A DNA stretch of 64,000 bases from Armatimonadetes bacterium Uphvl-Ar1 (GTDB lineage: Bacteria; Armatimonadota; Fimbriimonadia; Fimbriimonadales; Fimbriimonadaceae): the NCBI GenBank assembly GCA_002162075.1, contig CP021423.1:310001-374000 (forward strand), written 5' to 3'. Under the pieces are notes generated by a model. The model was given only the letters and a program-made list of their open reading frames with translations, made no database searches and was not told where the DNA came from. How positions within the stretch are numbered: position 1 is the stretch's first letter; every line of letters starts with the position of its first letter. This document shows positions 2,140-38,968 of this stretch, piece by piece. The position numbers and the translations under genes were made by a program.

Positions 2140-2811
2140 ATGGTTGCAATTTTAGCGGCGATTGGGGTGATGCAAATGGTGGGGCCGTCGATTTTGTTTG
2201 TGGGGAACAGCCATACGGCCACAGGGGATATTCCGGGGATGGTTGTTGCAGGGTTGCGGTTGGATGGGAATTGGGCGAATGTCCGGTATCAGGTTTGGTC
2301 GGCAGGGGTCTTGAACGATTGGGCGGCAAATCCGGAGCGGGTGAAGGCGCTATCAAACGGTAAGTGGGATGTTGCGGTTTTGCAAGGGGCTTCGATTAGT
2401 CAGTCGCATAAGTACGATTATTCGCAGGCCGGAGGGATTGATCTCGCCAAAAAACTTGGGGAGAATGGGACGAGAGTTCTGTATTTCTCAGAGTGGTCGA
2501 GGGCGGGTTGGGATGAGACGGCTTACATTGAGGGGATTTATCGTGGGATTCAGAAGGAAGCAAACGGCGGAGACATTGTGCGTGTCGGATTGGTTTGGGA
2601 TCGGTTGCGGGCGAAGGCACCGCGATATAAGTTGATTAGCGAGGATGGGAACCATGCTCGGTTAGATGGTGCTTATCTTGCGGCGCGGGCGATTGCAGCA
2701 GGGATACGAGGTTCGGATCGAGATTTTGAGGTGCCAGGAATTTCGCCCGGCTTGGCTCAGCAGGTGAGCTTGGCGATGCCCAAGGTTGAAGAGCTTCTGA
2801 TTCTCCGTTAA
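2140..2811 (+). CDS. SGNH-hydrolase-like exported protein
   Basis: 223 residues from the ATG at 2140 (a TTG lies two codons upstream). A short hydrophobic start is followed by ILFVGNSHTATG at about 18-29, a variant SGNH block I in which the nucleophile motif is GNSH rather than GDSx. Near the C-terminus DGNHARLDGAY (from about 169) could supply catalytic Asp/His. The set matches a family of secreted SGNH-like proteins with weakly conserved blocks; activity is inferred, not certain. It lies 27 bases after another SGNH hydrolase, and its stop overlaps the stop of the convergent kynureninase gene. Confidence 0.65.
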   Translation: MVAILAAIGVMQMVGPSILFVGNSHTATGDIPGMVVAGLRLDGNWANVRYQVWSAGVLNDWAANPERVKALSNGKWDVAVLQGASISQSHKYDYSQAGGIDLAKKLGENGTRVLYFSEWSRAGWDETAYIEGIYRGIQKEANGGDIVRVGLVWDRLRAKAPRYKLISEDGNHARLDGAYLAARAIAAGIRGSDRDFEVPGISPGLAQQVSLAMPKVEELLILR

Positions 2812-3961
2812 CTCATTTTAGATAATGTTTGGGCAACGCGTTCAAACTCTTCGTTGGTGTTCAGAGGGTGGGGACCGAAGCGGACGAAGCCGTTTCGGGA
2901 ATCGACCCTGATGTTGTTTTGTTTGAGGTGGGAGACAATCTCTTTGTGGTTTTCGGCGGGAAGGAGGGAGAATGCGCCGAACTGGGTGGGGTCTTGGGGC
3001 TCGAAGACTGGAATGTTGTGATTTTGGAAAATGTGGCGCATTTCGGCTTGTTGGGCGAGGGAGGTGGCGCGGAGTTTTTCGACCGTGAAGTGTTCGAGGT
3101 ATTCGAGTCCGGGGAGGGCTTGATAGGCTTGGATGATGGGGGGTGTGGATTCCCACCAGGAGCGATGATCTTCGGCTCGGTCGGCGGTGCGGGCGTAGCC
3201 GAAGAGTTCTTTTTTGGCGAACCAGCCAGTATCGAGGGTTTGGTGGTTTTGGGGATTGGCGATAGCGAGCCAGCAGGAGCCGGGGCCGCCGTGGACGTAT
3301 TTGTAGGAGCCGCCGATGGCGAAGTCGGCGACGGGCCAAGTGAGGTCGATGACGCCAAAGCTGTGGTAAGTGTCGAGGAGAACGAGGGCGTCGTTGGCGT
3401 GGGCGTGGGTGATAACGTCTTTTAGGTTCGGGAAGATCTGTCCGGTGGTGAAATTGACGACGCTTATGATGACAAGGTCGGTTTGGGGAGTGATATGGGC
3501 GATGAAATCGTCGGCGGTTAGTGTTGGGACAGGCTGGGTTGGTTGGGGGTTAACCCAAGTTGTCTTGGTGAGTCCTTGTGCTTCGTAAGTGCGCAGAATG
3601 AAGTCGATGCTGTCGAATTCCAGGGATGAGGTTACGATGTTGAGGGTTCTTTGGGGAAAGCAGTTGAGGACAGCGCGGAGTCCTTGACCGGCGGAAGTTT
3701 TGAGGACGACGGAACCTGGATCAGGCAGGCGGAGGAGGGTTTTGACCTTAGTGTGGTAGGAGTCGAGGGCTTGGAGCCAGGGTTCCCAGGCGTCATCAAG
3801 ATCGGTGTACCAGTGGTCGAGGTACTCGTTGATTTTGTCTTGGGTGGCGTCGAGCGGGCGGCCGAGACTATGGTTGGCGAGATAGATGCCTTTGGGATTG
3901 TGGCGGGTAAAGAGGGGGGCGATTTGGGTTTGGATTTCTTGGGGGGTGAGGGGGAGGTCAT
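2808..3961 (-). CDS. kynU: Kynureninase (kynU), start codon out of frame
   Basis: About 380 residues can be read on the - strand from near 3949 to the stop at 2808. Kynureninase (EC 3.7.1.3, PLP-dependent) converts L-kynurenine to anthranilate and alanine. The PLP-lysine motif GSYKYVHGGPGS is present, as are NFTTGQIF, LLDTYHSFG and C-terminal RFGPHPLN. The ATG at 3961 is out of frame with the body by one base: the G run at 3950-3954 has five G, where the upstream repeat copy that shares this sequence has six and reads M-T-S-P-L-T-P-Q-E in frame. In the body frame there is no ATG/GTG/TTG before a stop. Either a consensus error or a real disruption. It lies downstream of the tryptophan dioxygenase gene, supporting a tryptophan-to-anthranilate route. 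Confidence 0.85.
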
Positions 3962-4506
3962 GGTTTTGATTCTGTTTAGGAGGTCAACCCCTCCCGACCC
4001 TTTGGGCCACCCTCCCCAACATTGGGGAGGGAAAGGCGATTTGGGTTTGGATTTCTTGGGGGGTGAGGGGTTGTGTCATGGATTTGGTTCTGTTTTGAAG
4101 GTCAACCCCTCCCGACCCTTTGGGCCACCCTCCCCAACATTGGGGAGGGAAAGGCGATTTGGGTTTGGATTTCCTGGGGGGTGAGGGGGGAGGTCATGGT
4201 TTTGATTCTGTTTTGAAGGTCAACCCCTCCCGACCCTTTGGGCCACCCTCCCCAACATTGGGGAGGGAAAGGCGATTTGGGTTTGGATTTCTTGGGGGGT
4301 GAGAGGTGGTGTCATGGTTTTGATTCTGTTTTGAAGGTCAACCCCTCCCGACACTTTGGGCCACCCTCCCCAACATTGGGGAGGGAAAGGCGATTTGGGT
4401 TTGGATTTCTTGGGGGGTGAGGGGTTGTGTCATGGACTTGGTTCTGTTTAGGAGGTCAACCCCTCCCGACCCATTGGGCCACCCTCCCAATGTTGGGGAG
4501 GGAAAG
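3918..4506. repeat. Five tandem ~118-bp repeats carrying the kynU 5' end and a GC-rich palindrome
   Basis: The segment ggcgatttgggtttggattt recurs at 3918, 4035, 4153, 4271 and 4389, giving periods of 117, 118, 118 and 118; the last unit ends against the dioxygenase gene. Read on the - strand each unit has a leader, an ATG and about 15 codons of kynU, then a palindrome of the type ccctccccaacattgggg. In the four upstream copies the kynU codons read in frame as M-T-(Q/S/P)-P-L-T-P-Q-E-I-Q-T-Q-I-A and then run about 16 codons to a stop. Copies differ mainly in codons 3-4 and in G-run length. Confidence 0.93.
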
Positions 4507-4514
4507 GCATTGGC

Positions 4515-5348
4515 TCATAATTCGGTTCGGACGGCCCAGAGTTCGGGGAAGAGGCGGATGTTGACGGCACGACGGAGGAAAGGGACGCCGCTACTGCCTC
4601 CGGTTCCGGTTTTAAATCCGATGATCCGTTCGACCGTGAGGACATGGCGGAAGCGCCAGAGGGTGAATTGTTCTTCGATATCGACGAGTTTTTCGGCCAT
4701 TTCGTAGGCGTCCCAGTGGTCGTGGGGGTGGGTGTAGATTTCTTTGAAGGCGGCGGTAACTGCGTCATTCGATTCGTAGGGTTGGCTGAAGTCGCGGCTG
4801 ATGCTGGATTCGGGGATGGGAAGTCCTTGGCGGTGGAGGTGGAGCAGGAATTCGTCGTAGATGCTGGGGGCGTTGAGGGTTGCGGTTAGTTCAGCATGAA
4901 TTTCGGGGTGATGCCGGAAAACAGATGTGGCTTGGGGATCTTTGTTGCCGAGGAGGAATTCGATGGTTCGGAATTGGTGAGATTGGAAGCCCGAGGCGTT
5001 GCCGAGGACACCGCGAAATTGGACATATTCGGATGGGGTGAGGGTTTCGAGTACGGCCCACTGTTCGAAGAGCATTCGTTGGACGTGTTTGACTCGGGCG
5101 AGGATTTTGAAACAGGGGCTGAGTTCGTCGGCCTGGATGTGCGCGATTGCGGCGCGGAGTTCGTGGATGACGAGCTTCATCCAGAGTTCTGAGGTTTGGT
5201 GTTGGATGATGAAGAGAGTTTCGTCGTGGTGGGGAGGATTGCTGAGGGGGTCTTGGGCGGAGAGGATTCGCTCGAGGTGGAGGTAGCCACTGTAATCCAT
5301 TCGGTTAGTGAAGTCTTGTTGGATCGTTGGCTCGAAAGGTCGGGACAT
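4515..5348 (-). CDS. kynA: Tryptophan 2,3-dioxygenase
   Basis: 277 residues, the normal length for the haem enzyme (EC 1.13.11.11) that oxidises L-tryptophan to N-formylkynurenine. Family signatures run through the protein: [19 protein letters not shown] near residue 45 (region of the substrate-binding and active-site His), [17 protein letters not shown] in the middle, and [20 protein letters not shown] with GGSSG and FPELW at the end (haem-ligand His and substrate-binding loop). The next gene on the same strand is kynureninase, separated by the tandem repeat array. A formamidase is not seen next to them, so N-formylkynurenine hydrolysis must be encoded elsewhere or be spontaneous. Confidence 0.95.
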
Positions 5349-11079: not shown

Positions 11080-11949
11080 ATGTTGAGCACGATTTGCGCG
11101 GCAATGGTCCTTATGAATCCGGGGACTGGGCAGGAATTGGCCCCAGAACTTGGCGTTTTGAAGAAGCAGATGGATGAGGTGGCGGCGGGGTTCCGGGGGC
11201 GGCTGGGATATCACGTGATTGATTTGAAGACGGGGCAGCGGTTTGGCTTTCGGGACGGGGAACGGTATCCGAGTGCGAGCACAATCAAGACGGTGGTGAT
11301 GATTGAGCTGTTCAACCAGATTGAGGAGGGGAAGATGAGCTTTGAGGACAAGCTTGAGGTTCCTCCCGTGGGTCAGCGGAACCCGAGTATGTGGACGGCG
11401 CACTTGATCGAGGGGACGAAGGTGAATTTGGATGGTTTGAATTCGCTGATGATGAATGTGAGTGACAACACGGCGACGGTGATGCTTTCGCAGCATGTGG
11501 GGATTCAGAATATTGAGAAAAGGATGTTGGGCTGGGGATTTGAGAATACGGCATGTACGATTCGGACGGCGGGGAAGGGGGAGCGGCTGGAGCGGCTGTA
11601 TCAGACTTTTGCGAACATGGGGGTGACGAGCCCGGTGGAGATGGCTTCGATTTTGAAGATGATTCACGATGGGAAAGCCGCGAGCCCGGCGGCTTGCGAG
11701 AAGATGATTCGGATTATGAGCAGTCAATATTGGGATGATTTTATTGATTGGAGCGTGCCGAGTGACGTTGTGATTGCGAGCAAAGTGGGGGCGTTGCAGC
11801 GGAGCCGGAGTGATTCGGCGATTGTTTATGGACCGAGGCCTTACATCCTCACGATTTATACGGATAACGCGACGGATCGGAGTTGGGGGTTTGATTGCGA
11901 GGGGCACGTGGCGATTCGGCGGTTGGGGGATTGGCTTGGAACGGGATGA
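11080..11949 (+). CDS. Serine hydrolase, class A beta-lactamase-like
   Basis: 289 residues with a short hydrophobic start (MLSTICAAMVLMNPGTG), possibly a signal sequence. The three penicillin-recognising motifs are visible: S67TIK70 in PSASTIKTVVMIELF, S128DN130 in MNVSDNTATVML, and K235VG237 in place of KTG. The classical omega-loop Glu (ExxLN) is not evident between 155 and 180, so deacylation chemistry may differ from true beta-lactamases; some relatives of this group have peptidase or unknown roles. Resistance to beta-lactams should not be assumed. It is divergent from the PEP-CTERM gene, with both promoters in the 175 bases between. Confidence 0.85.
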   Translation: MLSTICAAMVLMNPGTGQELAPELGVLKKQMDEVAAGFRGRLGYHVIDLKTGQRFGFRDGERYPSASTIKTVVMIELFNQIEEGKMSFEDKLEVPPVGQRNPSMWTAHLIEGTKVNLDGLNSLMMNVSDNTATVMLSQHVGIQNIEKRMLGWGFENTACTIRTAGKGERLERLYQTFANMGVTSPVEMASILKMIHDGKAASPAACEKMIRIMSSQYWDDFIDWSVPSDVVIASKVGALQRSRSDSAIVYGPRPYILTIYTDNATDRSWGFDCEGHVAIRRLGDWLGTG

Positions 11950-38842: not shown

Positions 38843-38893
38843 ACAACCCCTCCCGACCCCTTCGGGGCCACCCGCCCCAAACTTGGGGCGGGA
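38842..38893. repeat. GC-rich palindromic intergenic repeat
   Basis: aacccctcccgacccc, then ttcggggccacccgcccc, then aaacttggggcggg: the same layout as the palindrome inside the kynU repeats (cccgaccctttgggccaccc). The part ccgccccaaacttggggcgg forms a hairpin. It lies directly after the lipoprotein stop and may act as a terminator. Confidence 0.7.
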
Positions 38894-38968
38894 ATTGGCA
38901 ATCATTATCCCTTTGAGTCTGAGGTGACTATCGTTGAGATTTTCACGAGACAGAGGTAGGATTTTGGG

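Follow-up and report, generated by a model that had tools for sequence, protein, structure and literature searches.

Five tandem copies of the kynU start joined to a dispersed G/C-rich palindromic element in Armatimonadetes bacterium Uphvl-Ar1

Between the tryptophan 2,3-dioxygenase gene kynA and the kynureninase-like gene kynU, the genome of Armatimonadetes bacterium Uphvl-Ar1 contains five tandem units of 118 bp, each of which comprises a G/C-rich palindromic element, the kynU leader, the ATG and 15 codons of the gene. We think it likely that this array results from a recent tandem amplification, which was nucleated by the element, a dispersed G/C-rich repeat. Within one genus, a single-copy state, an amplified state and several parallel arrays are thus available for comparison base by base. 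Such a comparison bears on the mechanism by which DNA next to G/C-rich triplex motifs and REP clusters becomes unstable.

The kynA-kynU intergenic region

The analysed genome (G000) consists of a single contig of 2.985 Mb, and the window is the 64-kb stretch G000:C1:310001-374000 of it. Tandem Repeats Finder revealed 5.0 copies with a period of 118 bp (93% matches, score 1014) in the intergenic region, by a wide margin the strongest tandem array of the window, and thereby confirmed the five copies of the kynU start plus palindrome described in an initial annotation of this DNA (Table 1). On the minus strand, kynA is followed by the five units and then by the kynureninase-like gene. The unit extends from the C-arm edge of the element to codon 15 of kynU, and the start peptide repeated in the units is MTxPLTPQEIQTQIA. 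The four complete mini-frames of approximately 31 codons that had been reported between the two genes were also found, all of them intact. Each terminates 22 nt ahead of the following ATG by a TGA that is provided by the GGTTGA end of the element. In unit 5, on the kynA side, the palindrome is one base shorter than in the other units. Where units differ by one base, caution is advisable, as homopolymer undercalls are likely in this assembly.

Table 1. Features of the array, its flanking genes and a further element copy (positions within the window)
Feature	Position	Strand	Evidence or remarks
Kynureninase-like gene (kynU)	2808..3961	-	Pfam KYNU_C and Aminotran_5; TIGR01814, 94.8 bits
Tandem array, 5.0 x 118 bp	3918..4508	-	Unit: element, kynU leader, ATG and 15 codons
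Mini-frame, 31 codons and stop, MTQPLTPQEIQTQIAFPSPMLGRVAQRVGRG	3984..4079	-	Reading frame
Element copy, unit 1, adjoins kynU	3985..4034	-	Covariance model, 72 bits
Mini-frame, 31 codons and stop, MTSPLTPQEIQTQIAFPSPMLGRVAQRVGRG	4102..4197	-	Reading frame
Element copy, unit 2	4103..4152	-	Covariance model, 72 bits
Mini-frame, 31 codons and stop, MTPPLTPQEIQTQIAFPSPMLGRVAQRVGRG	4220..4315	-	Reading frame
Element copy, unit 3	4221..4270	-	Covariance model, 72 bits
Mini-frame, 31 codons and stop, MTQPLTPQEIQTQIAFPSPMLGRVAQSVGRG	4338..4433	-	Reading frame
Element copy, unit 4	4339..4388	-	Covariance model, 65.6 bits
Element copy, unit 5, adjoins kynA	4457..4505	-	Covariance model, 61.3 bits
Tryptophan 2,3-dioxygenase gene (kynA)	4515..5348	-	TIGR03036, E 9e-117; PF03301
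Single intergenic element copy	38844..38895	-	Covariance model, 77.9 bits

The units have a mosaic structure: the leader includes two parts with two variants each, and all four combinations are present, as expected from recombination between units. It is extremely unlikely that the array was created by the assembly and that the true genome harbors a single unit. Although the assembly appears to contain homopolymer errors, several linked substitutions, combined in mosaic fashion, distinguish the units, the array comprises just 590 bp within a genome contained in a single contig, and assemblies of congeners show comparable arrays.

The 31-residue peptide of the mini-frames was assigned to no family in NCBIfam. 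Rfam gave no credible match on the array, where the best hits were to unrelated families with E-values of 1.5-4.7, and identified one tRNA only in the whole window. The predicted RNA fold of the complete unit was ordinary (z -1.07), while the element together with the leader was modestly stable (z -2.19). With regard to selection on the mini-frames, there are too few differences among the units, which are too alike to show constraint.

The reading frame of kynU

The match of kynU to TIGR01814 falls below the equivalog cut-off of that model. All units hold the kynU ATG and 15 codons as had been annotated, but the fifth ATG (3961), the one joined to kynU, does not share the frame of the gene. 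The shift amounts to one base at a C-run near 3950, where one C is missing (CTCCCCCTC, compared to CTCCCCCCTC in both unit 3 and the sister genome). From the last upstream stop (3984-3986) to well inside the gene, the kynU frame did not contain any ATG, GTG or TTG. Judged from the sequence, the frame break is probably a homopolymer undercall of the assembly, since within the same 40 kb further reading frames are broken by losses in G-runs. Compared to the sister genome G006, one-base losses in G-runs were found at 11931 and 21340 (recG-like helicase gene). The alternative is a real frameshift, by which kynU would be inactive or phase-variable in this strain and the array would lie ahead of a decaying gene. 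The absent C and the lack of another ordinary in-frame start nearby speak for this explanation, yet we hold it to be unlikely because the losses in G-runs, including that in the recG-like gene, indicate homopolymer errors and the other 380 codons of kynU are intact.

The palindromic element

Alignment of copies gave a consensus of approximately TTTCCCTCCCCAAnnTTGGGGAGGGTGGCCCnnnGGGTCGGGAGGGGTTGA, about 50 bp long, with two hairpins that are backed by two-sided changes (7 cells; none of 500 shuffles scored equally high). The element begins with the hairpin CCCTCCCCAAnnTTGGGGAGGG, which is followed in the long form by a second small hairpin and then by GGGAGGGG; the short form is devoid of the second hairpin. 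By covariance-model searches, approximately 40 elements were detected across G000. The initial annotation had noted that the palindrome also occurs elsewhere as an intergenic repeat, and a copy at this second site in the window was indeed recovered with E = 1.4e-17 in 464 kb. At E <= 0.01, with some hits to the reverse strand of the palindrome included in the counts, there were 30-78 matches in five of seven congeners, 13 in G007 and 56 in G017, a member of another genus. G001 had no match at this threshold, and the remaining genomes that were searched had few or none. The element is a genus-level dispersed repeat. The literature on RIME and Bru-RS elements and on Fimbriimonas repeats yielded nothing relevant.

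The element ends with the domain GGGAGGGG, a mirror image of the G-arm of the first hairpin (arms CCCTCCCC/GGGGAGGG). With at most one mismatch, a mirror third domain was present in 24 of 30 distinct elements compared to 4% with shuffled tails; scored as a direct repeat instead, the third domain was found in eight of the 30. Two copies (879841 and 1862740) have arms and a third domain that are longer together. In arm variants the third domain is mostly still GGGAGGGG, hence third-strand covariation is weak.

This is the architecture of purine-motif intrastrand triplexes. Holder et al. (2015) described G/C-rich motifs of this type as abundant and stable in vitro (PMC4666352). For these motifs a band consistent with a polymerase stop was reported, as well as an association with local rearrangement and genome instability in E. 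coli, the mechanism of which was termed unclear (PMC4666352). TMECO, defined as CCCTCNCCC N3-6 GGGNGAGGG N3 GGGNGAGGG (consensus CCCTCNCCCN3-6GGGNGAGGGN3GGGNGAGGG; PMC4666352), and other class II motifs share with the element the presence, in a single strand, of a C-rich arm, its G-rich complement and a further G-rich domain as well as many dispersed copies; a link to local instability has been reported for the published motifs. The element differs from TMECO in its arms and third domain, and in its long form, which is the one present at kynU, the second loop is a hairpin of approximately 14 nt; its triplex is putative. Identification of the element as TMECO was rejected, as the consensus does not fit the published pattern.

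The ITxF rule for class II motifs demands a pyrimidine arm, a purine arm and a mirror-matched third purine domain with stems of 6-15 nt and at most one mismatch. The three domains were recognised in 29 of 35 elements when the second loop was allowed to reach 20 nt, and four of the five kynU units showed a perfect third-domain match of 9 nt. A second loop of 1-6 nt, as in the rule, was present in 15 of the 35 elements, namely short forms, while it measures 14 nt in the units at kynU. Since the TMECO consensus is unmatched and the second loop at kynU has this length, we describe the element as triplex-like and do not file it as an ITxF member. Its domains suggest that it can probably fold into an intrastrand triplex; the energetics computed for the element are those of hairpins only.

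The locus in related genomes

G006 is the nearest relative compared. Its kynU is 91% identical, and long collinear stretches exhibit approximately 87-95% DNA identity. The kynA-kynU spacer of G006 contains a single element and a single kynU start that runs uninterrupted into kynU. In G007 (75%) one decayed element lies in the spacer ahead of a single kynU start, and in G001-G005 kynA and kynU adjoin without an element at the locus. As a single copy is present in G006 and G007 and none in G001-G005, the simplest history suggested by these sequences is that an ancestor shared by G000, G006 and G007 first acquired the element in the spacer, and that the amplification at kynU, known only in G000, came later.

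These data corroborate the annotated view that the units arose by amplification, and an unrelated origin of the units was looked for in the relatives and not found. The idea that the palindrome had been inserted into the 5' coding end of kynU had to be abandoned: in G006 and G007 the element resides in the spacer, upstream of the kynU start, so that the point where codon 15 meets the palindrome represents a duplication junction. This junction, ATCGCC/TTTCCC, derives from AATGCC/TTTCCC to the left of the first element and ATCGCC/CCCCTC within kynU, so that both parental breakpoints carry GCC.

Element-containing arrays at other loci

Arrays that contain the element were also found elsewhere in G000 and in further species of the genus. 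At 2308.2 kb of G000 there are 2.0 copies of a 119-bp unit, which includes the 3' end of a reductase-like gene. A second array at 1377.6 kb (G000:C1:1377001-1378600; 2.2 x 148 bp) adjoins the 3' end of an enoyl-CoA hydratase-like gene and overlaps it in part. G007 carries 3.3 copies of 108 bp at the orthologous locus (G007:C286:4000-6086), thus a period different from that in G000. At the sites of the 2308.2-kb and 1377.6-kb arrays G006 does not contain the element; further element arrays, mostly intergenic, are present in G003 and G006. Four arrays were read closely, those at kynU, 2308.2 kb and 1377.6 kb and that of G007. In these it is the flank next to the third domain that is duplicated, and the junction is located at the C-arm edge or at most approximately 40 nt from it, a polarity of flank side and junction that is amenable to a bench assay. 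Both hydratase arrays start with an extra, element-less copy of the flank ahead of the first element. Spaced segments of G000 with a total of 400 kb served as a sample of the background rate and contained three long-period arrays, one with the element (the 1377.6-kb array, already known), one with a related palindrome and one with neither; for a firm claim of array enrichment at elements this sample is too small and the loci are too few.

Four complete start regions between kynA and kynU make a role in kynU expression possible. The initial annotation suggested that repeated start sites might tune kynU translation. A model in which selection maintains the array because four extra kynU starts and five hairpins tune kynU, either by a re-initiation ladder or by shielding of the spacer mRNA, perhaps with the unit number as an expression dial, agrees with the intact upstream ATGs and frames, the regular distance of their stops to the next ATG and the position of the array within the kynA-kynU gene pair. 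Against it stand the ordinary fold of the unit and the similarity of the units, which reveals no constraint on the frames. Moreover, comparable arrays are intergenic or duplicate 3' ends of genes, and tuning of start sites cannot explain units that carry 3' ends. We regard tuning of kynU by the array as possible but unsupported, and maintenance by selection as quite improbable. A serial translation re-initiation ladder, in which cells differ in unit number and thereby in their KynU:KynA ratio, is very unlikely; if true, a triplex-forming repeat would act as a copy-number dial on an operon.

Possible origin of the array

We propose that the three domains of the element fold as a purine-motif intrastrand triplex in single-stranded DNA and that the folded element may stall replication or loop out a strand. 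A 3' end that had arrived at codon 15 of kynU could then re-anneal at the GCC beside the element, which would duplicate the element and the gene start. Unequal recombination might later have lifted the unit number to five and mixed the units. The mini-frames would then be by-products, whose translation and effect on kynU expression are possible, and repeats of this kind can give rise to novel short reading frames that are already equipped with a start.

Such an origin by slippage or template switching appears to be favoured by the single copies in G006 and G007, the GCC at the junction, the mosaic units and the recurrence of arrays elsewhere. The approximately 40 genomic elements, the mirror third domain and the joint lengthening of arms and third domain point in the same direction, as do the two array sites of G000 that lack the element in G006 and published precedents: G/C-rich triplex motifs have been linked to polymerase stops and local instability (PMC4666352), and tandem REP units with flanking DNA have been described (PMC3733652, PMC3116915). 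Several observations count against amplification of this kind, namely the 14-nt second loop of the kynU form, which is outside the published triplex search rule, the weak third-strand covariation, the small number of loci behind an enrichment of arrays at elements and the extra element-less flank copy at the hydratase arrays, which goes beyond simple slippage.

Similarity to other palindromic repeats

REP, BIME and REPIN clusters have in common with the element that they are short palindromes, mostly intergenic and sometimes tandem with flanking DNA (PMC3733652, PMC3116915). The element is BIME-like in that it is a dispersed palindromic repeat reiterated in tandem with flanking DNA. Unlike REPs and REPINs as defined in PMC3733652, it neither ends with a GTAG or CGTC tag nor flanks a cognate Y1 transposase gene within 1.5 kb, and no linked RAYT was found. 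The kynU array differs from REP clusters in that the reiterated flank holds the start codon of the gene downstream together with 15 of its codons.

Two Y1 transposase genes (G000:C1:447815-448150 and G000:C1:959031-959282) were identified in the genome. Their flanks carry distinct palindromes of their own, GACCCCTCCGGGGTC and ATTGGTC...GACCAAT. Since a different palindrome flanks each Y1 gene, further REP-like families probably exist in G000. The Y1 transposases were rejected as drivers of the array on account of these different palindromes. Mobilisation and amplification of the element by a RAYT in the manner of REPs or REPINs could be reconciled with the presence of the two Y1_Tnp genes, with the frequent tandem arrangement of REP clusters with flanking DNA and with the spread of the element, evident from sites occupied in G000 and empty in G006. 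We nevertheless strongly doubt it, because both genes are bordered by other palindromes, no match of the element lies within 1.5 kb of either gene and the consensus is devoid of a GTAG or CGTC tag. Amplification nucleated by the element itself remains our preferred explanation.

A 75-bp tandem repeat with the related palindrome CCCTCCCCATCAGGGGAGGG, outside the element model, was noticed at 2149-2375 of G000:C1:467001-487000; this palindrome possibly represents another family.

Like Rickettsia palindromic elements (reviewed in PMC10969869), the element can occur in frame inside reading frames; the former are approximately 150 bp long, and the element at kynU resides in a spacer. In G006 (G006:C4:151000-152500, 658-849), three short-form elements of 48 bp and a degenerate fourth are located in frame within the reading frame of a sugar ABC-transporter ATPase and encode the repeated sequence NPSLTLPKLGEGTDDG. 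Four element-like palindromes inside a minus-strand reading frame of 384 codons (G006:C2:256000-257500, 586-846) are possibly another in-frame case.
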